This document shows, piece by piece, positions 6,369 to 26,524 of a DNA stretch of 64,000 bases. Origin of the DNA: Pseudovibrio axinellae (GTDB lineage: Bacteria > Pseudomonadota > Alphaproteobacteria > Rhizobiales > Stappiaceae); the NCBI RefSeq assembly GCF_900110875.1, contig NZ_FOFM01000005.1, positions 1 through 64,000 of the forward strand. The letters are read 5' to 3'. Made by a program: the position numbers and the translations under genes. The notes under the pieces were generated by a model. That model was not told the origin of the DNA. It saw nothing but the letters and a program-made list of their open reading frames with translations, and searched no databases. Position 1 is the stretch's first letter. Each line of letters begins with the position of its first letter.

Positions 6369-6818
6369 TTAATGCGCGGTTTGCGGGTCTGCTTCCGGCG
6401 TTACTGCAAGCACTGTAAAACTCAGCGTTAAAACGCCCGTTCGCTTTTCGCCTCGATCCCGGCCGGTTGCTAAATTCAAATTGCTGGATTGCAGGTAAAG
6501 CTCTTTCACCAGCCCGTTTAAATAGTGACTGCCAGCAAGAGCGCCCTCTACCTCAACTGCAATTTGGTCAAGTTCATCGTCAAAGCCCCTGCCATCTGCA
6601 ATCGCTTCAACGGTAATGCTCATTTGCCGTTCAATATCGCGGCCCGGCCCCATTTCTGCAGGCTGGCTTTGTTCATCCAAAATATAAATAAGCAAGGCAG
6701 GTAAGCGCTTATGTTCCAACGGATATGTACGAGTGACAAAAACCCGCTCTGCAGTGCTTGGCAGCCCTTTTAACGCAGCCTCCACCGCATCACGCACCTG
6801 TGTTCTGATATGTGCCAT
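6369..6818 (-). CDS. tail terminator / minor tail protein U-like
   Basis: A 149-residue protein with an N-terminal MAHIRTQVRDAVEAALKGLP helix, a beta strand region (RVFVTRTYPLEHKRLPALLI), and RQMSITVEAIADGRGFDDEL with a downstream helix. This is the fold pattern of tail terminator proteins (lambda gpU / DUF3168-like), which cap the tail tube and join it to the head. The slot between the head-tail joining gene and the major tail gene is right for this role. The family assignment is from pattern and position. Confidence 0.65.
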   Translation of the reverse strand: MAHIRTQVRDAVEAALKGLPSTAERVFVTRTYPLEHKRLPALLIYILDEQSQPAEMGPGRDIERQMSITVEAIADGRGFDDELDQIAVEVEGALAGSHYLNGLVKELYLQSSNLNLATGRDRGEKRTGVLTLSFTVLAVTPEADPQTAH

Positions 6819-6826
6819 ACCTGCCC

Positions 6827-7138
6827 CTATTCGCGTTCTAACACGATCTCGCTTAAGCCTGCCCCGTCACTCATGGGAGCGCTCGCAGCTGTAAAGCGCT
6901 GCCCGTCAATTAAAAGCTCTGCGCCCTCGCCAAACTCATCGGGGATTTCAGAGGTCTTCACCGCAAACACAGGCTTAGACGTGAGCATGCCAGCCTCACC
7001 AAAAGGGGTTTCTTCCCCCTCATTGGACAAGATCCCAACAAGCGGCCCGTTGCTCCCGTTTTGCAACGCGTAGGTTGCGTTTGTGGCAAACTCATCAGTG
7101 TTCAGCAGGGCGTTCAAGTCATCGTCAAAATCAATCAT
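6827..7138 (-). CDS. head-tail joining protein (gpFII-like)
   Basis: A 103-residue beta-rich protein (MIDFDDDLNALLNTDEF, AVKTSEIPDEFGEGAELLID). Size, composition and position after the capsid genes resemble lambda gpFII-type head-tail attachment proteins. It starts at ATG 7138, which overlaps the stop of the 47-residue gene upstream (ATGA), so the two are coupled. It ends 8 bases before the tail terminator-like gene. Confidence 0.6.
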   Translation of the reverse strand: MIDFDDDLNALLNTDEFATNATYALQNGSNGPLVGILSNEGEETPFGEAGMLTSKPVFAVKTSEIPDEFGEGAELLIDGQRFTAASAPMSDGAGLSEIVLERE

Positions 7139-7278
7139 TGCCGCTTCACCAGTACTTGCCCGCCCTTAACCCCAATTGCCCGGTTTACAGGGGCTTTTCC
7201 CATGGCCCGCGCCAACTCTTTAGGCGTTAGGGGTTTGGGCTGTGTCAGCCTGGTTGTGTTCGCCAAGTCTTTTTTCAT
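7135..7278 (-). CDS. small phage head protein of unknown function (47 aa)
   Basis: A short frame starting at ATG 7278 encodes MKKDLANTTRLTQPKPLTPK followed by ELARAMGKAPVNRAIGVKGG and a short basic end. It is preceded by GGTGAG and its TGA overlaps the start of the gpFII-like gene. Basic composition (many Lys/Arg) and full use of an otherwise empty slot in a tightly packed operon support it. I do not recognise a family; a capsid-completion or decoration role is only a guess. Confidence 0.6.
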   Translation of the reverse strand: MKKDLANTTRLTQPKPLTPKELARAMGKAPVNRAIGVKGGQVLVKRQ

Positions 7279-7306
7279 CGGTACGCTCTCACCTTCCAAG
7301 ATCCAA

Positions 7307-7337
7307 GATAAACGGGAGGCACTGCCCCCCGTTTATC
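7307..7337. other. perfect 10-bp inverted repeat
   Basis: GATAAACGGG and CCCGTTTATC face each other across 11 bases between two small head genes. No T-run follows on the minus strand, so it is more likely an RNA-processing or attenuating hairpin than a terminator. Confidence 0.45.
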
Positions 7338-7355
7338 TCTCATAAAAGCCGGGGT

Positions 7356-7559
7356 TTAATTCCCGCTTGGGTCAGGCTCCGGCGCTTTTTCCGGTGCCTT
7401 GGCTTTGCCAACCGCCTTCTTTGTTTCTTCCGCTTTGCCCAGATTAATCAAAAAATTAGCCTCTTTTTCAGGGGCGTTCACCACATCACCGGGCCCAACG
7501 TTTTCACCGTCGCAAACCGTGCGCTTTACAATTACAATCTTCTTCTTAGCATTCGCCAT
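7356..7559 (-). CDS. small Lys/Pro-rich phage head protein (67 aa)
   Basis: A 67-residue protein (MANAKKKIVIVKRTVCDGEN, GPGDVVNAPEKEANFLINLG) with a Lys/Ala/Pro/Glu-rich tail. Similar small proteins with a V-x-GD-V-x-x-x-E-x-x-x-L-x-x-x-G-K-A pattern are common just after major capsid genes in tailed phages, and their exact role is unknown. It lies downstream of the capsid terminator at 7600-7629, so it may be expressed at a reduced level or from its own promoter. Confidence 0.65.
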   Translation of the reverse strand: MANAKKKIVIVKRTVCDGENVGPGDVVNAPEKEANFLINLGKAEETKKAVGKAKAPEKAPEPDPSGN

Positions 7560-7599
7560 AACATGACCTCTTAAGTGTTTGAGTAATCAAAGGAAGTTC

Positions 7600-7629
7600 A
7601 AAAAAAGCAGCCGGGTTGCCCGGCCGCTT
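7600..7629 (-). terminator. rho-independent terminator after the capsid gene
   Basis: On the minus strand AAGCGGCCGGG pairs with CCCGGCTGCTT around a 3-base loop and runs into TTTTT. It begins about 15 bases after the protease-capsid stop, where it could cap the most abundant structural transcript. Confidence 0.75.
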
Positions 7630-7643
7630 AAGGGCTGGAAAGC

Positions 7644-9485
7644 TTAAGCTTGGAATGAATGACAGAAGCTTTGCGGGTGGCGGGTTGCAAAATCTACATC
7701 TTGCATTGCAACAACGCGCACCGTGCTACTTGTTGCCTGTGTGAACGGGTCAATGGTCAAATCAACACCGGTCCAGATCGCAATTAAAAGATCTGCCCAG
7801 TTACCAAAAAAGGCATTGCTATTAAGCACTTGGTTGGAAATACCGGCATTATAACCGTTTACCGTATTGCCCCGTTCCCAGATAAACTGCGCTGTACCCG
7901 CTGCCTTTTCCGTGGTCTTTAGCGCCCCGCGCATCTCTGCATTGAGCACATAGCCAAGCGCCCCAATATCCGCATCATCGCTTGCAACAGAGGATTCCAT
8001 TTCAACCACCTCTGTAAAAGTTGGTGCACTTGCTGCAAACGTTGTTGAGTTAATGCCGGTTGTGGCTGCAATGCCCTTGGCTGCGTTGCCTGAACCATCA
8101 CTGTGCAAAGCTGCCCGGTTGATTTCCAACCCGATCACCTTAGCCAGATCATCACGCACCAACGCCTCAACATCTAGTGAGGATTGAATAAGCAACTTAC
8201 GGGAATAATCGGTGAAGGCCCCAAGTGTCTTGGGCGTTAGGGCGACCTGATCAAACGCAGCTGCGCTTTTGGTCACGTCATCACCTTCACCAACCCAATA
8301 TGCCGTTGCACCCCCAACCATGCGCGGAATAAGCAAATCACCTTGCAAATCATTGAGCATATGAGCGCCCATATTCATCACAACAGCACGCTTGCGCAGC
8401 AATTCAATAAACGAGCCTGCAATCAAATCCTCTGAAACCAGAGCCCCACCGCTCGCAATGGTGCCGGTGTTAAGGTTGCGCGTTTGCCCAAGCACATTGG
8501 CGCGCATCACATCAGCAGGCACAAGCAACCCACCTGCAGATTTACCGCGCTTTCTTGCAGCCTCATCAGAGCATTCATATTCAAATTTTGCCGCCTCCAC
8601 ATATTCCTTGTTGTGTGGGTTTGCCAGGGCATTGAGCGCGCGCACAAACGAGAACTTTTTGCGCTCTTTGCCAGTCAGGCCAATATCAGCAGCCCCGGAG
8701 ATTTTTTCTTGCCCGCGCTCGCCCATTTGCAAAAGCACTTTGCTAGAAAATTCACCAGCAGACAAACCCGAACGGATCGCATCTGCAGCCAGGTCACGAC
8801 AGTTCCAGCTTGCCGCTGTGGCTTCAATTTCACGAATGCGTGTGGCCTCATTTGCAGCCGTTTCAGAACGGATTTGCGCAAGCTCTTCTTCTGAAGGGCC
8901 GTTATTTGTATTTTCAAGTGGTGCAGGCATTGCAGCAGCCTTTCTTTCAAGTGCAATGGAAACAACAGCCCCCTCAAATTGTGAGCGTCCCACCCCCACA
9001 GAAGGATCTGCAGGAACGGATACAATTGAAATTTCATGAGGGGTCCAGCGGGTGACGCGGTACACGTCTAAATCATCGTCATTTTCTTCTTCAAGCCGGG
9101 CTTTGTGGATCTGATAACCAACAGAAACATTGGTAAGCTCACCATCCAGAACACGGCTTTTAATCTCTTGCGCCCGCTCGGTTTTACCAAAGCGAACAAA
9201 GGCCCGGCCCTTGCCGTTCTTGACTTCAACGCGCTCAATCACGCCCACCTGATTATCTACGCTTGCGCGGTGATCAATCAGCAACGGCGCACGCCCGCTC
9301 CCAATAAATTCAAGGTCAATTTCGCCGGCCTCGTGACCCAGAATTTCAACGCCCCAATAGGTGCGAATAGGGGAGTCACTGGAAAAGGAAAGCTCTAAAA
9401 GGTCTTCTTCTGCGCCCTCTTGCGCGCGCACGAAAGCACCCTGCCGGAACAACCGTTCCGGCAGCTTCAGGTTATTTGTTGGCAT
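7644..9485 (-). CDS. prohead protease fused to HK97-fold major capsid protein
   Basis: One 613-residue frame carries two functions that are usually separate genes. Residues about 1-170 match the S78/U35 prohead protease: His72 in LLIDHRAS, Ser121 in LTNVSVGYQ and Glu151 in TPHEISIVSVPAD correspond to the HK97-type H-S-E triad. After a charged alpha-helical scaffold-like part (about 190-270), residues about 275-613 are an HK97 major capsid domain (ALVSEDLIAGSFIELLRKRA, YWVGEGDDVTKSAAAFDQV, ending in VDFATRHPQSF). The protease presumably cuts itself away during prohead maturation. There is no stop or frameshift between the parts. Such fusions are known in other phages. Confidence 0.92.
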   Translation of the reverse strand: MPTNNLKLPERLFRQGAFVRAQEGAEEDLLELSFSSDSPIRTYWGVEILGHEAGEIDLEFIGSGRAPLLIDHRASVDNQVGVIERVEVKNGKGRAFVRFGKTERAQEIKSRVLDGELTNVSVGYQIHKARLEEENDDDLDVYRVTRWTPHEISIVSVPADPSVGVGRSQFEGAVVSIALERKAAAMPAPLENTNNGPSEEELAQIRSETAANEATRIREIEATAASWNCRDLAADAIRSGLSAGEFSSKVLLQMGERGQEKISGAADIGLTGKERKKFSFVRALNALANPHNKEYVEAAKFEYECSDEAARKRGKSAGGLLVPADVMRANVLGQTRNLNTGTIASGGALVSEDLIAGSFIELLRKRAVVMNMGAHMLNDLQGDLLIPRMVGGATAYWVGEGDDVTKSAAAFDQVALTPKTLGAFTDYSRKLLIQSSLDVEALVRDDLAKVIGLEINRAALHSDGSGNAAKGIAATTGINSTTFAASAPTFTEVVEMESSVASDDADIGALGYVLNAEMRGALKTTEKAAGTAQFIWERGNTVNGYNAGISNQVLNSNAFFGNWADLLIAIWTGVDLTIDPFTQATSSTVRVVAMQDVDFATRHPQSFCHSFQA

Positions 9486-13844: not shown

Positions 13845-13984
13845 GGTGGGGAACCTGAGTTACTTGCAGTTCTAGCTATATATTTTTGACAATTGTACTC
13901 AAAATCACTGAGTACCACCTAATAAGTCTTCAGGGAAAGGAGCCCTGAAGTTTAAACTCAATCCAATAGGAAAGGTCACACCTT

Positions 13985-14563
13985 ATGAATCGCCCCGAAA
14001 AAATCACTCGTACAATCACTGACTTTGAGAAACTGCCTATTCAATTTCCGACCCATATGCATCCACCAGAGTTTTGGGAGCAACTAGGTAGAACAATAGG
14101 CACTTTTGGTTTTCTAGAGGAAATACTTGCCAAAGCAATTTTGGTTTTCACTGGAACAACACCCTATACTGAGGACAAAATCCAAGAGGCATATGAGGAA
14201 TGGGACCGAAAGTTAGAACGCACGCTTACAGACCCGCTATATCATTTGGCTAACACCTATCAGAAAGCAGTGAAAAGCAATCCCGCATCAACAATCGAAG
14301 ACATTGACGACCTAGTTTCTATGATCAAAGAATCTATTAAGATCAGAAACGTCTTATGCCATGGATCATGGAACCAAACACCCGATGCAAATGGCGCGAG
14401 TATACCATTCTACTTTCGCAAAGAGGGAAATGATCAGCTCGAATTTGAGACACCAATTAACATTATGTTTTTAAAGCAGACGCAAAAGCAGGTTGCCGAT
14501 CTTTGTTGTAAAGTGATTAAATCAGTTACCGATATGGGCTACCAGTTTCCAGGCGGGTCGTGA
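13985..14563 (+). CDS. HEPN-like moron, function unknown
   Basis: A 192-residue, mostly helical protein encoded opposite to all surrounding structural genes, between the large and small terminase genes. It carries an R-x4-H motif, RNVLCH (residues 121-126), followed by GSW; this matches the RNxxxH signature of HEPN RNase domains. An upstream helix FGFLEEILAKAIL also fits HEPN. The gene is more A+T-rich than its neighbours, has an AAGG upstream of the ATG, and splits a normally continuous packaging module. It may be a toxin or an anti-phage RNase, but no partner antitoxin is seen beside it. Confidence 0.65.
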   Translation: MNRPEKITRTITDFEKLPIQFPTHMHPPEFWEQLGRTIGTFGFLEEILAKAILVFTGTTPYTEDKIQEAYEEWDRKLERTLTDPLYHLANTYQKAVKSNPASTIEDIDDLVSMIKESIKIRNVLCHGSWNQTPDANGASIPFYFRKEGNDQLEFETPINIMFLKQTQKQVADLCCKVIKSVTDMGYQFPGGS

Positions 14564-14734
14564 CCTGGTCGAAAATTCGTTCTCACCCCTAGTGAAGAAA
14601 AGCCCAACTAGATTGCTTTTGACAGCTTGAGCTGCATAATTTTCCACCCGCGATTTTACGAAGCACATCCACATTGCAAGGCTGGTCGAAAGAAAACCAG
14701 CAGACCAGTTCCTTGCGTTGTAATCTCTCTGCAT

Positions 14735-15518: not shown

Positions 15519-16145
15519 TTAACGGGCAGTTTTCAGAGCCTTCTGCATTGCACGCCGGAAGTTGCGTTTCATCCGGGCGTCTGCAGTCTTGCGTGCACCT
15601 TCTTCAAAGCGCAGGCGCGGTTGGTAGTCTGCGCTCTTCTCATAGGCAACCAGCAGCTTTAAACCTGTGCGGCCCTTGGTGCCCCGCGAGCTATCCCGGC
15701 GCTTGCCGCGCTTAGGGCGCTGCCAGATTCCCTCAACCCCGTTGATCTCACCTTGAAACACATCCGGGCGTTTCAACAGCCGGTCAATACTGCGCCGTGG
15801 TAGGTTGCCGTATTTGTTGAGCCGCTGTGAGAACGGAACCGCCAGCACCTTCCGCTTTGGCTTCCTCGTTCCACCCTTCTCCTGCAGTTCCAAATAATCC
15901 GCCTGTCTGTCCTTGAAGAAGACAACGGCCGAAAGGTTGCGCTTACTTGCCCGCTTCAATGCAAGGCCACGTTTGGTGAAGGGTGTGGGGCGATCAAGTC
16001 GCCTGCTTAAGGTCTTTTCGGTGTTGGTCTTGATATCCTGTGCGGTCGCATTCAACGCTAAGCTGATCGCATAGGGCACCTGCCGTTGTTCCGCTTTGGT
16101 CAGCCCCTTGGCGACCTCACTAAAGTTTACGGTGTACTGGAACAT
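15519..16145 (-). CDS. phage protein, tail-completion (gpZ)-like, uncertain
   Basis: A 208-residue basic protein (many Arg/Lys; MFQYTVNFSEVAKGLTKAEQ, ISLALNATAQDIKTNTEKTL, YLELQEKGGTRKPKRKVLAV, LRFEEGARKTADARMKRNFR). The N-terminal layout resembles minor tail Z / HK97 gp10-type tail completion proteins, which also begin with a short helix and a T-A-x-D-I pattern. The position upstream of the small terminase is unusual for such a protein. The annotation is therefore tentative. Confidence 0.5.
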   Translation of the reverse strand: MFQYTVNFSEVAKGLTKAEQRQVPYAISLALNATAQDIKTNTEKTLSRRLDRPTPFTKRGLALKRASKRNLSAVVFFKDRQADYLELQEKGGTRKPKRKVLAVPFSQRLNKYGNLPRRSIDRLLKRPDVFQGEINGVEGIWQRPKRGKRRDSSRGTKGRTGLKLLVAYEKSADYQPRLRFEEGARKTADARMKRNFRRAMQKALKTAR

Positions 16146-16420
16146 GCAGCCCCCAACGAAAAAGCGCCCTCAGGTAGTAACCTGAAAGCGCAATTATTCA
16201 TCATCGCTGAATCATGCCGATTAGTGCTGCAGTTGTCAATGCAGCTTTACCGACTAACAAGGCTTCGTGTTAAACATTTTGCATTTTAACGATTGGCTTC
16301 CAGCTCTATTATAACGTGTGCGCAATCATTATACTCTCTTGTCGTTATATGGCACATATTAGAAAATAAGCATTGAATGCGATTCAAATATTACTATTTT
16401 TCATTACGGGGTGCCCAGAC

Positions 16421-18772
16421 ATGAATTCAGTGACCTCACATAATAAAAAAAAAATAAACGTTAATGAAGGAGAGGTAGATTTTTTCTCTGATCTTATAAC
16501 TGGAGAAAGTGCCCTAAAAAAAGAGTTCACAATTCAAAAGAGGCCCTATTACGTTAAAAGTGTAAAAAACACTGAAACTACAGCTGAATATTCCAAAGGT
16601 TGGGAAGTTATTCGGACTGGAAAAATAAGTACACGCCTCAAAAAACTAAAAACTCATGACCAGTTATTGGAGAGTAGAGTTTGGTGTCTTTTGAGGAAGA
16701 TGGGATTTAGTACTTTAAGTGGTTCTAACTTCAAAATCAGTTTTACACGTGATAATGGAACCATTGGAAATAAGCAAATTGATGTATACGCAGAAGATGA
16801 TGACGTAATATTTATTGTAGAGTGTAAAAGTAAAGAAAAACGTGGAAGACGAACTCTGCAGAAAGATATACAAGAAACGATTTCTCTTCAGGATTACATA
16901 AGAAAAACTATTTTTAGACGATTTAGTGACTTACCAAAACCAAAAATTGTCTGGATCTACGCTACAAGTAATATTTTATGGTCTGCGCCCGACCTGGAGC
17001 GCGCAGAGGACGGCAATATTCACGTCATTACTGAGAATGAGCTTCAATATTATGAAACTTTTACAAAACACATGGGGCCAGCAGGCCGATATCAAATAAT
17101 TGGTGAATTTTTAAAAGGTCAGAAAATACCTGGTTTATCAAACATGAAAGTACCCGCAATACGAGGAAAAATTGGAGGCGAAAAATTTTATAGTTTTGTG
17201 ACGACTCCTCGCAACCTTCTCAAAATTGCGTATGTGAACCACCAAGCATTAAACAATCCAGATCAAAAGCCAGCTTATCAGCGGATGGTGTCTGCCAAAA
17301 GAGTCAAGGAAATTGGCGAGTTCATCTCTAAAGGCGGATATTTTCCAACCAACATCCTTATAAATTTGACAGATAAACCTAAATTTGAACTGATTTCTGA
17401 TAACGAAAATACTGATCCTAATTTAAAATTTGGTTGGATTACACTTCCATCAAAATTTAGGTCAGCTTGGGTGATTGATGGACAACACCGATTATTTGGC
17501 TTTTCACATTTAAGCGATGAGTATCTTGACCAGAGCTTATTTGTTCTTGCTTTTCAACAAATGCCGACCCGCAAAGAAGCTGATCTATTCATTACAATCA
17601 ATCATGAGCAGAAAAGTGTCCCCAAAGGGCTCCTAATGAGCCTTCTTGCAGACATCAGAATGGGTGATGACGACCCGTCAACAGCATTATCAGCCTTGGC
17701 CTCAGCAGTAATCAGAGCACTAAACGACACTAAGTCTAGTCCTTTGTTTGGGAGATTTGTTAAACCAGGGGTTCCACCTGAACCGGAACAGAACTTAACA
17801 ATCTCCGAAGGCATAAACGGGTTGAGAAGGTCTGGCTTAATTGGAAGAGTAAACGGTAAATACTTAATGCCCGGACCATTATCTGGTGCAACAGATTCAG
17901 AGACAGTCGAGCGAGCACAATACATACTCTCCACATACTTCGACAAAGTCTTATTGGCAAATCCAGATAGATGGGAAGCTGGCCGAGAAGCCTACATTTC
18001 AACTAACCCTGGGATCAGAGCACATATGACTGTAATCTCCGAAGTCATCAATCATATTACGAGCAAACAATCCCTAGACTTTCAATTAATAAATCAAACT
18101 GAAGCGGCAGGACACCTAACAGAATTCTGCCAACCCGTATTTGATTTAGTCGAGAGTTGCCCAGATGATCAAATTAAAACCATGTTTTCAAGGCGTTTTG
18201 GTGAGGGCGGAGTGAAAGAATATATATTTCACCTACTTAAGCCACTAAATGAACATCGTCCCGATTTTGGCAATGAAGAATTTCAACGCTGGATAGAACA
18301 AAGCACCTCTGAAAAAATTGACCAATATAACCAGTTCCTTATGAAGCTAGCTGAACGTCTTACAAACTACGTTATTGATACACTTAAGGAAGTACACGGA
18401 CAACACCGATTAGATAGTGACGAACCGGCTTACTGGGAACTGGGTGTTCAAAGTGCACGTATCCGAAAAAATGCCTATGAAAAACAGCAAAGAGACGATA
18501 AGCGCAGGAAACCAAAAGAAGCCTATCTTGATATCGTAGATCTTGAAGAAATTGTTCGACAGAAAAACAACTGGATCCGCTTTGAAGCTGTGTTTAATAA
18601 TCCTAGAGAGGGTGACAGAAAAGGCCAGAAGTATTACCTTAGTTGGATACAAAACTTTAATGAGCTGCGAAATATCGCTGCACATAAAAATCAGCTAAAA
18701 ACCTATACAGATGACGACTTGGAGTTTATCGAGTGGCTCCGTACGACTGTCAGTCCGAAAGTCCCAGAATGA
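16421..18772 (+). CDS. nuclease-DGQHR-HEPN-like protein of a putative phage-borne defence module
   Basis: About 783 residues from ATG 16421, chosen for the GGGGTG 7 bases upstream; the frame opens at 16373. Three parts are visible. First, a PD-(D/E)XK-like nuclease core: Asp121 (IDVYAEDDD) and Glu134-x-Lys136 (IFIVECKSKEK). Second, a DGQHR domain: DGQHR at 353-357, then FVLAFQQMPTRKEADLFITI and NHEQKSVP, the DndB/DptB ParB-like pattern. Third, a C-terminal helical part ending with RNIAAH (750-755), an R-x4-H HEPN-like motif. Strongly A+T-rich compared with flanking phage genes. Its TGA overlaps the ATG of the methyltransferase, so the pair is one unit. The joint function is inferred. Confidence 0.82.
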   Translation: MNSVTSHNKKKINVNEGEVDFFSDLITGESALKKEFTIQKRPYYVKSVKNTETTAEYSKGWEVIRTGKISTRLKKLKTHDQLLESRVWCLLRKMGFSTLSGSNFKISFTRDNGTIGNKQIDVYAEDDDVIFIVECKSKEKRGRRTLQKDIQETISLQDYIRKTIFRRFSDLPKPKIVWIYATSNILWSAPDLERAEDGNIHVITENELQYYETFTKHMGPAGRYQIIGEFLKGQKIPGLSNMKVPAIRGKIGGEKFYSFVTTPRNLLKIAYVNHQALNNPDQKPAYQRMVSAKRVKEIGEFISKGGYFPTNILINLTDKPKFELISDNENTDPNLKFGWITLPSKFRSAWVIDGQHRLFGFSHLSDEYLDQSLFVLAFQQMPTRKEADLFITINHEQKSVPKGLLMSLLADIRMGDDDPSTALSALASAVIRALNDTKSSPLFGRFVKPGVPPEPEQNLTISEGINGLRRSGLIGRVNGKYLMPGPLSGATDSETVERAQYILSTYFDKVLLANPDRWEAGREAYISTNPGIRAHMTVISEVINHITSKQSLDFQLINQTEAAGHLTEFCQPVFDLVESCPDDQIKTMFSRRFGEGGVKEYIFHLLKPLNEHRPDFGNEEFQRWIEQSTSEKIDQYNQFLMKLAERLTNYVIDTLKEVHGQHRLDSDEPAYWELGVQSARIRKNAYEKQQRDDKRRKPKEAYLDIVDLEEIVRQKNNWIRFEAVFNNPREGDRKGQKYYLSWIQNFNELRNIAAHKNQLKTYTDDDLEFIEWLRTTVSPKVPE

Positions 18773-19581
18773 GTACTAAGCCGCTTAGACCCTTTTTAAA
18801 ATGGGCAGGAGGAAAACGCTGGCTTTTTGAGAAGCAACTGTTCTCCGCCCCACACTATAGTGGCAAATACATAGAGCCCTTTCTTGGAGGAGGCGCTGTT
18901 TTTTTTCAGCTACTCCCCTCTTTTGCGTTATTAAGTGATGCAAATGGTAGATTAATCGAACTTTATACTGTAATTCGCGATGAACTCCTTGAATTTGAAG
19001 CAGAATTAAAGACACATGCAGCATTGCATTGTAAAGATTATTACTATGCAATAAGAGGGAAATCCTTTAAGAAACCGGTGGAACGAGCCGCACAGTTTAT
19101 GTACTTAAATCGCACATGCTGGAACGGTTTATATCGTGAGAACCAAAAAGGACAGTTTAACGTCCCAATAGGCACCAAGCTTAATGTATTTTTGCCTAGT
19201 GATAACTTTACTTCTTGGTCCAAGGCTCTATCGAAAACAACACTGTTGCATCAGGATTTTGAGTTAAGCATCGATACTGCAATGGAAGGGGATTTCATAT
19301 TTGCTGATCCTCCATACACTGTGCGCCATAACATGAATGGCTTCGTAAAATACAATCAGAATATTTTTGCATGGGAAGATCAAATTCGTTTGTGCAATGC
19401 CCTATCTAGAGCTGATGAACGAGGCGTGCAATTTGCTTTAACAAACGCAGATCACGAAAGTATTCGAGAGCTATATCGTGGAATAGGTATACAGACCCAA
19501 CTAACTAGACACAGCCGCATAGCAGCCAGCTCTCAACATCGCTCAAATTCTACAGAAATACTGATAAGCAACACATCATAA
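18769..19581 (+). CDS. D12-class DNA adenine-N6 methyltransferase (Dam-like)
   Basis: A 270-residue methyltransferase with the D12-class (alpha order) motifs: FLKWAGGK at 9-16 and EPFLGGGAVFF near 36-46 for S-adenosylmethionine binding, and DPPY at 180-183 as the catalytic motif. The family methylates adenine N6, often in GATC, but the target here cannot be read from sequence. The start is ATG 18769, overlapping the stop of the nuclease-DGQHR gene, which shows co-translation. In context it most likely protects self DNA, or provides the mark read by its partner. Codon use is A+T-rich like its partner. Confidence 0.93.
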   Translation: MSTKPLRPFLKWAGGKRWLFEKQLFSAPHYSGKYIEPFLGGGAVFFQLLPSFALLSDANGRLIELYTVIRDELLEFEAELKTHAALHCKDYYYAIRGKSFKKPVERAAQFMYLNRTCWNGLYRENQKGQFNVPIGTKLNVFLPSDNFTSWSKALSKTTLLHQDFELSIDTAMEGDFIFADPPYTVRHNMNGFVKYNQNIFAWEDQIRLCNALSRADERGVQFALTNADHESIRELYRGIGIQTQLTRHSRIAASSQHRSNSTEILISNTS

Positions 19582-19651
19582 ATCTCAATTCGTAACCTCT
19601 GAACAGCCAACACATACGCACCAATTAGATATCTTCCTCACACCTCTCCGT

Positions 19652-20152
19652 TCACCCTACGAACTCCCCCGCCACATGCCCCAGGCCATTGCGCATGAGG
19701 CGGGAGACGTAGTCGCGGGTGGCTCTGCTTGGGGCGCCAGCCTCCCGCTTGGCTTCGTTCTCCTCAAAGCCGATAGCTGCTTCTGTGATGGATAGGCCCT
19801 GCCCGGCGATTGCGAAGACTGCCTGAGATTGATCAGGCCCTAGCAGGGCCGCGATCCGTTCTAGGGTTCTGTTTGCGTCTGTGGTGGAGACAAGAAGCCA
19901 ATCGCGCACTTTGCGGCTGCAATCTACGCGGGGTTGTGTGAAGTCGATGGAGCTGGCTTGCCCCTCGCATTCAGCATACAGCGCCCGAATTTTACAGCCT
20001 GCCAGGTACTGCAGCTTGGTGATGTGTTTGTTGTTGTAAAGCCATTCCAGCGCCTGCCCGCGTTGGTACTTTGCCCGGCGCAGTGCTTCCTGCTTTTGCT
20101 CTTTCTTGGTGCCGCGTAAGCGGAGTGGATCTGTATTCTTAGAGCTCAACAT
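19652..20152 (-). CDS. DUF6456-like phage regulator/replication-region protein
   Basis: About 166 residues from ATG 20152 (GGAG upstream), overlapping the end of the preceding gene. The basic N-terminal half (LRGTKKEQKQEALRRAKYQR, LEWLYNNKHITKLQYLAGCK) is followed by a helical C-terminal domain with R-x2-E-R-I-x-x-L-L-G-P and VSRLMRNGLGHVAGEF. The latter pattern is like DUF6456 of alphaproteobacterial phage and chromosomal proteins. It is the last gene of the leftward early module. A transcriptional role (late-gene control) is plausible from position but not shown. Confidence 0.6.
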   Translation of the reverse strand: MLSSKNTDPLRLRGTKKEQKQEALRRAKYQRGQALEWLYNNKHITKLQYLAGCKIRALYAECEGQASSIDFTQPRVDCSRKVRDWLLVSTTDANRTLERIAALLGPDQSQAVFAIAGQGLSITEAAIGFEENEAKREAGAPSRATRDYVSRLMRNGLGHVAGEFVG

Positions 20153-20804
20153 CCTGCATCTCCCCATGTCGTAAAACTTCTTTAGCAATCAGACCTGCCA
20201 GCCGTTCACGCCGCCGCTCAAATGTATCTGCCATCAACTGAATTGGATGGTTTGGCGGGAGCGCTGCGAGCTCCCGCGTGGTTTCCCCGCGCAGCACGTC
20301 CAGAGCAGTCTTCACCTGCCCGGCCACGCGTCGGTTGCGCTCCATTGTGGCGACCACGAGAGTTTCAGTTTCCACCATATCCGGCATGCGCTTTTCCCGG
20401 CGCACAAAGTCCACCAGATCCGCTTGCCAGCCAGCAATACAGGCGGAAAGCGCAACATCCGCATCAGCTCCCACCATGACCTTAATCGCCACATGCTCCG
20501 GCCATGGATAGCCGCCCACCTGCAGGCTTGGTTCCGGTGCGCCTTCCAGCTGCCGTTGTGCCTCTGTGCAGGCCTTCACGCACTCTCCAACAAACGGCCA
20601 GACAGTGCTTTTTGCAGCCAACACCAATGCATCCGCTCCGGCTTTCAGTACGTCCTCTGAAAACCCGCTCAGCTTCTCCCGCAAAGAGGTGAAATAAGCT
20701 TCTTCGTTGCTGCCTGGCACCTTTTTGAAAGTACCGCCCAACGTGCTCAAAAAGTACAGCGCTATGAGGTCATTGGCTGATTTTGTCTGTGTGGCCGCGC
20801 TCAT
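20139..20804 (-). CDS. replication-module protein, possible helicase-loader-like
   Basis: A 221-residue protein overlapping the replication initiator-like gene upstream (by four bases) and the DUF6456-like gene downstream. I do not recognise a family with certainty. The layout FKKVPGSNEEAYFTSLREKL, SGFSEDVLKAGADALVLAAK, WPFVGECVKACTEA resembles lambda P-type loaders, in which a short helical domain with a wP-x-x-x-E-F-x-x-x-C pattern precedes a charged C-terminal part. The position directly after a winged-helix initiator also fits. No ATPase motif is visible. Confidence 0.45.
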   Translation of the reverse strand: MSAATQTKSANDLIALYFLSTLGGTFKKVPGSNEEAYFTSLREKLSGFSEDVLKAGADALVLAAKSTVWPFVGECVKACTEAQRQLEGAPEPSLQVGGYPWPEHVAIKVMVGADADVALSACIAGWQADLVDFVRREKRMPDMVETETLVVATMERNRRVAGQVKTALDVLRGETTRELAALPPNHPIQLMADTFERRRERLAGLIAKEVLRHGEMQDVEL

Positions 20805-21694
20805 GCATAGCCCTCACCAAACACTTTGGTAATCGCCGCCCGGCAACGCTCTGCGGATCTGTCCAGATCCCGCGCCCGCGCTGCTTTTGCCTTGCTACCA
20901 TCAGGGATAAACCGGCCTTCAATCTTGCCCAGTTCTTCCCGGCTTCGTTTGGCCGCAAGAATGGCGCGGGTGAAGTAGTTGAGGCTGCGCGGTTGCTCCG
21001 GCGCACGCCCCAAAACATGGGCAATTGTGGGTTTTACGTCCTTTTCAAGATCGCACCCATGGATCAGCCAGCCCCAAACCGGATTTAGGCCGCCCCGCAC
21101 CTGTGCTGTGGTTGGGTCCAACCCAAGTGACTTTAGAAACCGGCTACAGCCCTCAACAAACCTCTGCCCGGCCCTATCCGCAATTGTGGGAGCCTGTGAG
21201 AGTGGAGAAGTGTTTTCGCATAAAGACCCACTCGCAGCCGCTTTGTCTTCTTCTTCTTTAGGTTTTAAGGACTCGTTCTTATAGGTGCCGATCTGGGGTG
21301 GCAGGGCCTGCCGATTTTCATTCGAAGCTTTAAGCTCATTTACATGGGCAGTGTGCGGAGCATCCTCGATGAGGTCGCCCTGCTCTTCCTCCTCCTCTTT
21401 GAGTGCCCGCATCACACGGTAGGTGTGGGAGCAGCTGCCTCCATCAGGGCGGATACCAGCCATCACCCGGAGCCACCCAGCCTTAGCCAGGTTGCCAATG
21501 GATTTTTGCACCGTAGAACGCGCAATCTCCAACTGCCGAGCAATCTTCACCTGACTGCGATAGGTCACGCCGTTGCCGTCCGTGGAGCAGCACAGGACAC
21601 CCAGCACCTGAATATCACGCGGTTTCAACCGCCGGTCCTCAAACACACCAGCAGGAATAAAAGACAAACGGGGACGATTAACAGGTCTAGGCAT
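20801..21694 (-). CDS. winged-helix phage replication initiator-like protein
   Basis: A 297-residue protein. Residues about 15-95 form a helix-turn-helix region (LKPRDIQVLGVLCCSTDGNG, VTYRSQVKIARQLEIARSTV, QKSIGNLAKAGWLRV) typical of phage replication protein O or HTH_36-type proteins. An acidic linker and a helical basic C-terminal part follow. It is the second leftward gene after Cro, the usual place for initiators, so origin binding is a fair inference. In such phages the origin often lies inside this gene; I did not identify iterons by eye. Confidence 0.65.
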   Translation of the reverse strand: MPRPVNRPRLSFIPAGVFEDRRLKPRDIQVLGVLCCSTDGNGVTYRSQVKIARQLEIARSTVQKSIGNLAKAGWLRVMAGIRPDGGSCSHTYRVMRALKEEEEEQGDLIEDAPHTAHVNELKASNENRQALPPQIGTYKNESLKPKEEEDKAAASGSLCENTSPLSQAPTIADRAGQRFVEGCSRFLKSLGLDPTTAQVRGGLNPVWGWLIHGCDLEKDVKPTIAHVLGRAPEQPRSLNYFTRAILAAKRSREELGKIEGRFIPDGSKAKAARARDLDRSAERCRAAITKVFGEGYA

Positions 21695-24815: not shown

Positions 24816-26195
24816 TTAAGGACAAGCCCTTCTAAATTCGACATATTTTTTGACGATGACATCAAGCGGATCGCGTTGATTGCTGTCAAAGACCTCGACC
24901 ATCTGCTCGATATCAGCGTCCGTTAGAGCAACAATCGCCTTTCGCTGCCCCGACCACAAATCAACCGTGCTTGAAAAACGCGCCTTCTTCAAAGGATTAC
25001 GCGTCACGAAAACTCCAAAGTTTCCCAAGTTGTCCTTCAGATACCGGTTAAGCTGATCGACATGCTTGGTCTCGATAGCCTTCACGTTCTTCATTTCGAA
25101 CGTAATCTGCCTCGAACCATAGTCCGTCATAAGTTCCTGGAGAAACGGGTGCGTCCGACTGTTGTAGAAGATCAGATCACGGATGCTCACGCCGCTGTCG
25201 GTGCGCGCCTGTTCCTGGGCAAAATCGAGCTGCGGATACAGGAGCGACGGAAGAAGCTGCCCGATCAACTTCTCATAGGCAATGTCCGCCCCATCGTCTT
25301 TGCCGGTCGGCAGTTTCTTGATCGCCGCCAGCTTTCGGCGGGCCCACAGCGCCGGAATCTGCGAGAAAAGAGGGTCGTTTTTGCAGTCTTCCAAAGATCG
25401 CTCTCGCGCCTGCACATAAGCATCCACGACTGCATAGTTATCGCGGTTGTAGATTTGCACTCTAACGCGGGTTAGTTCTTCGCCCTCGTGCGCTATGTCG
25501 TCCTGGGGGCAGAAATTACGAAAATAGGTATCATAGTTGATCCAAGGAACGTGCCGAAGCCAACGCTTCGGGACAAACAACACGGGCAATCCAGTTTCAG
25601 GATGTATAGGAACTTCGGCCTGAACGTCCTCGAACATCAGCGAGGATGGATTGTAGACGTTTGAGACCACGGTTCGCTTCAGCCCGACGCCCAACGCTTG
25701 ACATTCCTGTGCCGTGTAGTCGATCAGGAAACTCTTGATGAAGTTGCAGGCAATATCGCTGATCCGATCCTTACCGATACCATCAACAAATAGCTGGACT
25801 TCTTCGAAGTGGCGAAAGCCATGGTCTCGGTAGTAGGGTATCCGTTCGAAAAGGCTGAGAACCTCTTCTGCCTTAGCGCGACCGATCCGCGTCCCTTTTT
25901 TGGTTGCGGAAGTCCCTAGTCCCACTTCATCGCATTCCGACGCGGCGATGAGTTGCTGAATAGCTTGTTCCTGGTTGCCCGATTTGGAAAGAACTCCAAT
26001 GTTATTGAAGGCTCCCAAAATCATCTGGTGCAACCCTTTATCTTGAAGGCTAGGGGAACGCCACAAGAGAAAAGGATCGACATAGAGAGGAATGTCTTCG
26101 TCTAGGAACGGGATCGCAAAGTCGAGCTCAGCTTGCGGAACAAAGATATCGTGAAATTCTGTAAATCTCGGGCGAATTATGTTCATGTATGTCAT
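24816..26195 (-). CDS. PD-(D/E)XK-like nuclease protein heading a three-gene cargo operon
   Basis: About 459 residues from ATG 26195; the frame opens at 26231 and a second candidate ATG lies at 26186. Numbering from 26231, the C-terminal part has a restriction-endonuclease-like core: helix YEKLIGQLLPSLL, RTDSGVSIRDLIFYNS with Asp352, then ITFEMKNVKAIETKHVDQLN with Glu379-x-Lys381, and strand GVFVTRNPL. The N-terminal half (FTEFHDIFVPQAELDFAIPF, LDEDIPLYVDPFLLWRS) is unrecognised, perhaps a sensor. It is the first gene, followed at 9 bases by two small paralogues. It lies beside the integrase, a common phage cargo site. A defence role is inferred from motif and place. Confidence 0.68.
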   Translation of the reverse strand: MTYMNIIRPRFTEFHDIFVPQAELDFAIPFLDEDIPLYVDPFLLWRSPSLQDKGLHQMILGAFNNIGVLSKSGNQEQAIQQLIAASECDEVGLGTSATKKGTRIGRAKAEEVLSLFERIPYYRDHGFRHFEEVQLFVDGIGKDRISDIACNFIKSFLIDYTAQECQALGVGLKRTVVSNVYNPSSLMFEDVQAEVPIHPETGLPVLFVPKRWLRHVPWINYDTYFRNFCPQDDIAHEGEELTRVRVQIYNRDNYAVVDAYVQARERSLEDCKNDPLFSQIPALWARRKLAAIKKLPTGKDDGADIAYEKLIGQLLPSLLYPQLDFAQEQARTDSGVSIRDLIFYNSRTHPFLQELMTDYGSRQITFEMKNVKAIETKHVDQLNRYLKDNLGNFGVFVTRNPLKKARFSSTVDLWSGQRKAIVALTDADIEQMVEVFDSNQRDPLDVIVKKYVEFRRACP

Positions 26196-26524
26196 TCTGA
26201 CGTGAATTGCTCGTTTGCCGATGCGTTGCATTCGACAAAGCTTACCCGTTGAGGTCGAAACAATCCAGAAAGATACCCGACGATTCCGTTTTAAGCACCG
26301 CTTTTGTTAAACCAGAGGGCAAGGCGGCCAACGCAGCGAATTTCCGCTTTCCGCCTAAAGCAACATGCCAACCTAGATCAAGATTAAGTTGTGTATCGGA
26401 CTGGTTCGAACTCCCAGACTTCAGATTGAATGTCCGCAATGGTCACCTTGCGACATGCAGCGCTAGCGAAGGCCAGCGCCCTCACTGATGATAGCAAAGG
26501 GCTCAAACAAGCAACTCTCGCGAC
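26196..26524. other. 329-base non-coding gap between cargo operon and integrase
   Basis: Expected to hold the cargo operon promoter. No tRNA, repeat or convincing gene is seen; short frames here look like chance. Confidence 0.5.

Follow-up and report, generated by a model that had tools for sequence, protein, structure and literature searches.

Within a 64,000-nucleotide (nt) stretch of Pseudovibrio axinellae DNA (NCBI RefSeq assembly GCF_900110875.1, contig NZ_FOFM01000005.1, positions 1 to 64,000; hereafter the window), a prophage carries two overlapping genes, P0001, which encodes a large effector protein with a DGQHR domain, and P0002, which encodes a Dam-family (D12) adenine DNA methyltransferase. 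The two genes share 4 nt, the TGA of P0001 occupying 18770-18772 and the ATG of P0002 18769-18771, which bears out the first-pass annotation of this DNA, in which the effector stop was said to overlap the start of a Dam-class methyltransferase gene. The start codon of P0001 is uncertain, a TTG at 16373 being also in frame. Searching the 5.13-Mb host genome for the effector returned a single match.

The first-pass annotation had proposed that one protein combines a nuclease core, a DGQHR domain and a HEPN-like tail, and the motifs it cited, D121, E134-x-K136, DGQHR at residues 353-357 and R750-x4-H755 (RNIAAH), were all found at those residues of P0001. Relatives of P0001 were gathered from genomes, plasmids and viral contigs, which yielded 22 distinct full-length or nearly full-length loci, the window included. 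TIGR03187 recognized the DGQHR domain strongly (E 2.5e-43; 148.8 bits, where 58.85 would suffice), Pfam DndB matched it as well (E 2.3e-14), and the pentapeptide was identical in 22/22 loci. P0001 fell far under the cut-offs for DndB (TIGR03233, 22.3 of 328 bits), DGQHR_dnd_1 (TIGR04172, 91.9 of 450) and DpdB (NF041060, 75.8 of 300).

The nuclease region of P0001 stayed below the Pfam cut-off, matching Card1_endonuc at E 0.015 with the full protein and at 5e-4 (20.0 bits against 26.4) with the region alone. When 19 members, the window included, were scanned singly at E values up to 0.1, Card1_endonuc was matched in 14 (best E 1.8e-6), Hjc in 12, Mrr_cat and NERD in four each and HSDR_N_2 in three; nine further families matched one member each. 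We take the five named families all to belong to the PD-(D/E)XK superfamily. E84, D121 and E134 formed invariant or nearly invariant alignment columns. The tail of P0001 matched HEPN_Swt1 weakly (E 0.051, 14.3 bits against 27.5), and the PADLOC profile AbiD matched residues 715-759 at E 0.0013; among the 19 members, HEPN_Swt1 was matched in eight (E up to 0.1, best 1.3e-4) and Abi_2 in three. Of the proposed make-up, the DGQHR part stood firmly, a PD-(D/E)XK-like nuclease part was supported by the 19-member alignment, and the profile matches give moderate support to a HEPN-like tail.

P0002 scored 236.4 bits with TIGR00571 (cut-off 114.85), and the DPPY motif was present in the alignment. Its closest relative in the PDB was DpnM (2dpm, E 3.8e-45), followed by chains named DNA adenine methylase. 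An NGL-x-R ... FNVP segment, which we take to lie in the target-recognition part, is common to P0002, Dam and DpnM in the printed alignments, and the residues after the segment differ; a GATC-like target for P0002 appears possible from these comparisons. Besides P0002, the host genome gave no second match to the Dam family (TIGR00571).

Linkage of effector and methyltransferase genes

A D12 methyltransferase gene was directly adjacent to the effector gene in 17/22 loci (16/21 without the window), namely L004-L007, L033, L034, L036 (the window), L037-L041, L047-L049, L054 and L055. All of these pairs lay on the same strand with a gap of about -64 to +52 nt, computed on the longest open frames, and the methyltransferase followed the effector in nine and preceded it in eight. 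The linkage spans records from at least three phyla, so that the pair is linked across distant bacteria as had been proposed; the outcome named as damaging, homologues with the two genes unlinked, did not occur, though four of the 22 loci have another partner. The effector is rare and scattered: most of its length is present in only 5/297 genomes of the order, and these include the window's own genome and two broken copies.

The count of 22 leaves out L008, which lies on a truncated contig, the incomplete plasmid record H40, the plasmid records H2, H4 and H5 (which repeat the L002/L003 loci or nearly so), and repeat copies of counted loci (for example L001, L009, L015-L019, L029, L044-L046, L069-L072, L076-L078 and L156-L159); L040 and L041, which are 96% identical, were counted as two. 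A4 leaves out L033, L041 and L048, and A6 leaves out L031, L033 and L041.

In L032, an MT-A70 methyltransferase (Pfam E 9.3e-28) stands in place of the D12 enzyme, 27 nt from the effector. A radical-SAM gene is the partner in four of the 22 loci; it shares the effector's strand in L003, L031 and L042, whereas in L002 the two genes converge. Three of the four also contain a GHKL/Hsp90-like ATPase and two a second small DGQHR gene. The radical-SAM naming follows record annotation (L002, L003), Pfam matches below the cut-off, a B12-binding match in L042 and NCBIfam B12-type radical-SAM families. These cassettes (L002 8224-12493, L003 8362-12585, L031 2636-5832, L042 10213-11448) possibly represent a different DNA-marking chemistry. 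In L040 (12528-15771) and L041 (11128-14028), the opposite strand carries an additional small DGQHR gene together with an MT-A70-like gene, about 1-5 kb downstream of the main pair. Damaged copies occurred as well: the effector of L033 is split by a 3-kb insertion, that of L031 contains a TAG, and the methyltransferase of L054 lies in two frames. The insertion in L033 (genome G117, 6400-9367) carries, as judged by eye, a transposase-type gene and an ImmA-like protease.

The catalytic lysine of the nuclease was kept in 18/18 methyltransferase-linked effectors (ExK, with QxK in L048; read from the first piece in L033) and lost in 4/4 radical-SAM-linked effectors (ECR, ECT, ECT, ECR), of which L042 also has Asn for Asp121. 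An intact nuclease site without a methylase was not seen in the 22 loci. Fisher's test gave P 1.4e-4 for the association of lysine and methyltransferase, a value that holds only if the sequences are independent, which kinship breaks. The tree places the joint loss in two separate lineages, one formed by L002/L003/L031 and the other by L042; in L040/L041, the sisters of L042, methyltransferase and lysine are both present. Such joint loss is expected if an active nuclease is tolerated only beside a protecting methylase.

Whereas the 17/22 count starts from the effector, with the window added, a separate count started from the methyltransferase. In an alignment of 14 methyltransferases, 12 showed 48-54% identity to P0002 and that of L055 38-39%. 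Among plasmids, identity exceeded 50% at two distinct loci, one from Roseateles and one on a Zymomonas plasmid that appears in four records; the next match was at most 39% identical (best 40 listed, 841 records). Viral contigs yielded five loci at 48% identity or more (among the best 80 of 357 matches), one of which, L080, ended inside the methyltransferase, and 308 genomes of the class yielded three loci at E 1e-75 or better, the window among them. A DGQHR gene adjoined the methyltransferase or lay one gene off in 9/9 decidable loci (window included, L080 left out). As a control, 75 other D12 loci (26-40% identity, from the best 80 of the 357 viral matches) were inspected, 70 of them with at least 1 kb of flank on both sides, and none had a DGQHR neighbour. 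The view that P0002 is a generic phage Dam was rejected on this 0/75 result.

A variable site in related prophages

Six IMG/VR prophage contigs (L169-L174) carry a minor tail protein 79-95% identical to that of the window, and the same gene was found in 5/16 genomes of the genus, its own included. The aligned flanks showed about 71-93% DNA identity, with divergence from about 16146-16239 on; the match to the window resumes at 19662-19664 in L170, L171 and L173 and from 20964 in L172, and the stretches compared of L169 and L174 end short of the right edge. A Pfam scan of ten cargo proteins (two genes of L171) showed that the contents of the site vary. L170 carries a GHKL ATPase and a 5-methylcytosine (m5C) methyltransferase. 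The cargo of L171 (and, by eye, that of L173) comprises an ORC-CDC6-like ATPase and a D12 methyltransferase other than P0002, that of L174 AbiH with an m5C methyltransferase and Vsr, and that of L169 a radical-SAM gene and a SMEK-domain protein whose NACHT-like part scored below cut-off; L172 holds only a 194-residue open reading frame (ORF) with no Pfam match. This variety of cargo at one prophage site makes a defence-cargo role likely for the window pair, in agreement with the earlier proposal that the pair is cargo. In L171 (1109-5891) and L173 (1111-5893), four genes, encoding the D12 enzyme, a metallophosphoesterase-like protein (by eye), the ORC-CDC6-like ATPase and a protein of unknown kind, look like another unnamed system.

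The module had been described as A+T-rich, on the strand opposite to the phage genes and set between early and late modules, and this proved accurate. Per kilobase, G+C content was 0.39-0.41 over 16-19 kb, 0.56 at 15-16 kb and 0.57 at 20-21 kb; low values also occurred elsewhere in the prophage (0.47 at 14-15 kb, 0.40 at 22-23 kb). The late and replication genes run on the other strand from P0001 and P0002, which have the minor tail gene on their left and the early side on their right, where a gene of unknown kind and a gene without a match are followed by a replication-initiator-like gene (20801-21694). As the first-pass annotation had stated, no dnd gene was seen among the neighbours examined, no dnd profile search of the window or genome having been made. 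A promoter and terminator scan found sites no commoner than in shuffled sequence. The features are listed in Table 1.

Table 1. Features of the window locus, and loci that pair a small hydrophobic protein with a standalone DGQHR gene
Feature	Position	Strand	Basis
Left flank, minor tail protein gene of prophage	15519..16145	-	phrog_1924 E 7.6e-55
Cargo segment at variable prophage site	16240..19661	.	Related-prophage comparison and G+C drop
Effector gene P0001, 783 aa (amino acids), PD-(D/E)XK-like, DGQHR and HEPN-like	16421..18772	+	
Putative PD-(D/E)XK-like nuclease region, residues 70-215 (E84, D121, E134-x-K136)	16628..17065	+	Pfam matches and alignment
DGQHR (DndB/ParB-like) domain, residues 246-542, pentapeptide 353-357	17156..18046	+	TIGR03187
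Putative HEPN-like (Swt1/Abi2 type) tail, residues 639-761, R750-x4-H755	18335..18703	+	HEPN_Swt1, AbiD
Methyltransferase gene P0002, Dam-family (D12) adenine DNA methyltransferase, 270 aa	18769..19581	+	TIGR00571 E 4.4e-70
Right flank, early-side phage gene of unknown kind	19652..20188	-	phrog_21451 E 3.8e-7; conserved in L170, L171, L173
Small hydrophobic protein and standalone DGQHR loci	L074 4980-7530, L079 4998-7503, L025 1345-3843, L160 2956-4661, L161 2830-4604, L165 3435-5209		

A second variable site was observed between the terminase small and large genes (13850-14730), where the interval is about 880 bp in the window and, between aligned flanks, about 328-1858 bp in the six related prophages. 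It holds a 192-residue ORF on the opposite strand (13985-14563, +) with an RNVLCH (HEPN-like) motif, for which no PHROG match and no usable Pfam match were found. On the early phage side, a 471-residue protein (24816-26231, -) matched phrog_27295 (unknown function), and its PDDEXK_3 match was at chance level only.

Other DGQHR loci and the reading of the pair

Methyltransferases of the P0002 subfamily were also found beside standalone DGQHR proteins. In Roseateles L074, phage contig L079 and L025 (G282), where the methyltransferase shares 56%, 48% and 49% identity with P0002, the next genes encode a protein of 174-189 residues with several hydrophobic segments, as counted with a simple hydropathy window, and a standalone DGQHR protein of about 385 residues. 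On pRiA4 (L160), a DGQHR gene and a membrane protein that shares 66% identity with the L025 protein lie close to an MT-A70 gene and a BglII/BstYI-family endonuclease. Acinetobacter pTR3_1 (L161) bears a similar set that includes a 'DNA adenine methylase', and in Ruegeria L165 a comparable membrane protein-DGQHR pair adjoins phosphorothioation (PT) genes. In all six loci, the gene for the small hydrophobic protein immediately precedes the DGQHR gene. In the tree, the DGQHR proteins of these six loci cluster (97/98), apart from the fused clade (99/100). That a membrane protein takes the place of the nuclease next to methyltransferases of one subfamily suggests that the immune design is modular.

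Among 14 viral loci with standalone DGQHR genes, 12 (L056-L067, not L043 or L068) have an N6_N4-type methyltransferase gene directly before the DGQHR gene, L065-L067 being apparent near copies. A third gene of about 300 codons follows the DGQHR gene in 11 of these 12, and two of eight scanned products gave a weak HEPN match. Profile comparison of the HEPN tail with this third gene found no similarity, nor was a MAE_28990 match found in the third gene; we do not claim that the two form one family. At five standalone-DGQHR genome loci (L035, L050-L053), none of the methyltransferase and radical-SAM probes matched, dnd and dpd genes not having been probed, and for L163, L164 and L166 the record annotation shows no marking enzyme next to the DGQHR gene; these negatives count against a universal link between DGQHR proteins and modification. 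Overall, the marking enzymes found in company with DGQHR proteins are of several kinds, and so are the putative effectors. The earlier statement that they are known mostly from dnd and dpd systems thus held only in part, since they also stand beside N6/N4 methyltransferases and BglII-type restriction-modification (R-M) genes.

We consider it probable that the window pair is a two-gene R-M-like defence system carried as prophage cargo, with the nuclease gated by the ParB/DndB-type domain and the HEPN-like tail as a possible fail-safe. P0002 would methylate adenine in host and prophage DNA at its own site, possibly of the GATC type, and this methylation would protect the DNA from the P0001 nuclease. 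The DGQHR domain would bind DNA, a nucleoside triphosphate (NTP) or both and act as a switch, the PD-(D/E)XK domain would cut DNA without the methyl mark, and the tail may cleave RNA when restriction is overwhelmed. Protective R-M is favoured by the joint loss and by the dedicated methyltransferase. If this reading is correct, the pairing of a DGQHR-nuclease fusion with a plain adenine methyltransferase makes the role of DGQHR/DndB proteins testable by ordinary tools, and the joint loss of nuclease lysine and methyltransferase yields a clear prediction.

Several observations weigh against an R-M-like pair. The RxxxxH motif, kept in 19/21 readable relatives, is absent in L054 and L055, and a PDB sequence search with P0001 and with profiles of its three regions found no chain at E <0.1, only chance-level matches. 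The two independent joint losses agree, and they are too few for a sign test. The 48% line that bounds the methyltransferase subfamily was set after the gap in the lists was seen, and the linked methyltransferase of L055 falls within the identity range of the controls. A Mantel test of effector against methyltransferase divergence on 14 of the 17 pairs (without L033, L041 and L054) gave r 0.11, with 1401 of 5000 permutations as high; the test is weak, the methyltransferases being almost equidistant. Such uncorrelated divergence speaks against a strictly co-evolving pair, which would show correlation.

The same linkage is predicted by a modification-activated, SspE-like mode of defence, in which the methyl mark would license or stimulate a ParB-like NTPase/nuclease against invading DNA and leave it idle when missing. 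This mode is consistent with the company of DGQHR genes with several modification types, with GmrS/DUF262 as relatives of the DGQHR domain (accessible text of PMC4619093) and with the dependence of SspE on host PT modification (accessible text of PMC9646914). The protective model and the SspE-like mode are not told apart by these results, but the former explains the joint loss more directly, and we regard the SspE-like mode as rather unlikely. Greater doubt attaches to a toxin-antitoxin-like abortive system in which the HEPN RNase would kill, the methyltransferase or the DGQHR domain would restrain it and the nuclease region would only bind DNA. Retention of RxxxxH in 3/3 readable effectors that have lost the nuclease lysine would fit such a system, as would the related methyltransferase-DGQHR loci with a small membrane protein in place of the nuclease, but in L054 and L055 the HEPN motif is missing while the methyltransferase and the nuclease residues are both kept, so that HEPN is not the constant part.

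An improbable alternative is a module of benefit to the phage, whose methyltransferase would shield it from host restriction and whose DGQHR protein would be a DndB-like regulator. D12 enzymes are common in phages (106 phage records at E 1e-30), and DndB is reported as a dnd regulator in the accessible text of PMC10853773; yet the generic phage D12 loci lacked a DGQHR neighbour, the pair also occurs on contigs merely not called viral (prophage status unchecked), and a regulator needs no kept PD-(D/E)XK triad. That the two genes are neighbours by chance, or a decaying remnant without a shared function, as rarity in the sampled genomes and the broken L031, L033 and L054 might suggest, is barely credible in view of the gene overlap, the 17/22 linkage in at least three phyla and the 9/9 reverse search, and the idea of chance neighbours was rejected on the linkage counts.

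Beyond the R-M-like reading of the window pair, we tentatively raise the idea that DGQHR is a modification-agnostic sensor core between many DNA-marking enzymes and exchangeable effectors, of which the pair would be a compact two-gene form. The marking enzymes would be D12, MT-A70 and N6/N4 methyltransferases, PT genes and perhaps a B12-type radical-SAM enzyme, and the effectors the PD-(D/E)XK and HEPN fusion, a HEPN-like protein and a multi-helix membrane protein. We hold this idea to be doubtful, and slightly more so than at the outset, because several of the standalone DGQHR loci showed none of the marking enzymes probed. Were it true, R-M immunity would also take in systems that sense the lack of methylation and answer through RNA or membrane attack, not DNA cutting.

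Comparison with known systems

The HEPN survey of Anantharaman et al. (2013) lists, in its accessible part, 'ParB (Saro_3948), mostly active' among Swt1-like HEPN fusions (PMC3710099). Saro_3948 is there a ParB-fold protein with a Swt1/Abi2-type HEPN domain, as in P0001, and the accessible table names no PD-(D/E)XK domain and no Dam-family partner (PMC3710099). The homologue L002, on plasmid pNL1 of Novosphingobium aromaticivorans, is unlike P0001 in that it has a radical-SAM/GHKL-ATPase cassette nearby and is without the nuclease lysine. The Saro_3948 tag points to that species, and L002 is probably the same protein, the tag itself being unmatched. The first-pass statement that no named system has this layout was right in so far as the pair was not found described in the literature searched, but the ParB-HEPN fusion had been listed in 2013 in the accessible part of the survey (PMC3710099).

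Type II R-M systems with a DpnII/Dam-type methyltransferase resemble the pair in adjoining a Dam-family adenine methyltransferase to a putative endonuclease; unlike them, the pair has a putative nuclease that bears a ParB/DndB-type domain and a HEPN-like tail. In GmrSD and SspE, as in P0001, a nuclease is tied to an NTP-binding domain of the ParB/Srx type that bears a DGQ[HQ]R motif (for GmrSD, accessible text of PMC4619093 and PMC12373910), and GmrS/DUF262 is described as resembling the DGQHR domain and the ParB/Srx fold (accessible text of PMC4619093). The nuclease of GmrSD and SspE is of the HNH type, whereas that of P0001 is PD-(D/E)XK-like, with no DUF262 or HNH family matched at E up to 1 in the Pfam scan of P0001. 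We know of no cognate methyltransferase for GmrSD, and SspE works with PT genes. In the accessible text of PMC9646914, SspE 'relies on PT modification in host DNA'.

DndB, DGQHR_dnd_1 and DpdB share with P0001 a DGQHR domain and the company of DNA modification, but P0001 has additional nuclease-like and HEPN-like regions and is paired with a base methyltransferase. Binding of both ATP and GTP is reported for a DndB-like protein (accessible text of PMC12704722), and DndB is discussed as a possible NTPase, nuclease or regulator in the accessible texts of PMC10853773 and PMC12839542, the role of DGQHR/DndB proteins being debated even in PT systems according to the former. PADLOC 2023 profiles run on the pair matched DpdB, AbiD weakly and mostly generic methyltransferases, and left the system unnamed. 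The HEPN protein MAE_28990 is described as 'in operon with a ParB nuclease and DNA methylase genes' in the accessible part of PMC3710099. Methylase, ParB-like and HEPN proteins are thus encoded there by separate genes, an arrangement that resembles the L056-L067 cassette, and a set of this type, as far as that text goes, differs from the pair in its separate genes, in its N6_N4 methyltransferase and in that no PD-(D/E)XK domain was seen.

The P0001-P0002 pair is not described in the accessible portions of PMC10853773, PMC12839542, PMC13092281 and PMC12373910, and the literature searched yielded no account of the nuclease domain, of its pairing with a methyltransferase or of the exchange of partners, most subscription papers and bioRxiv lying outside its scope. 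As far as that literature goes, the ParB-HEPN fusion had been listed but not studied, and the nuclease domain and the dedicated methyltransferase in an R-M-like system are what is new.

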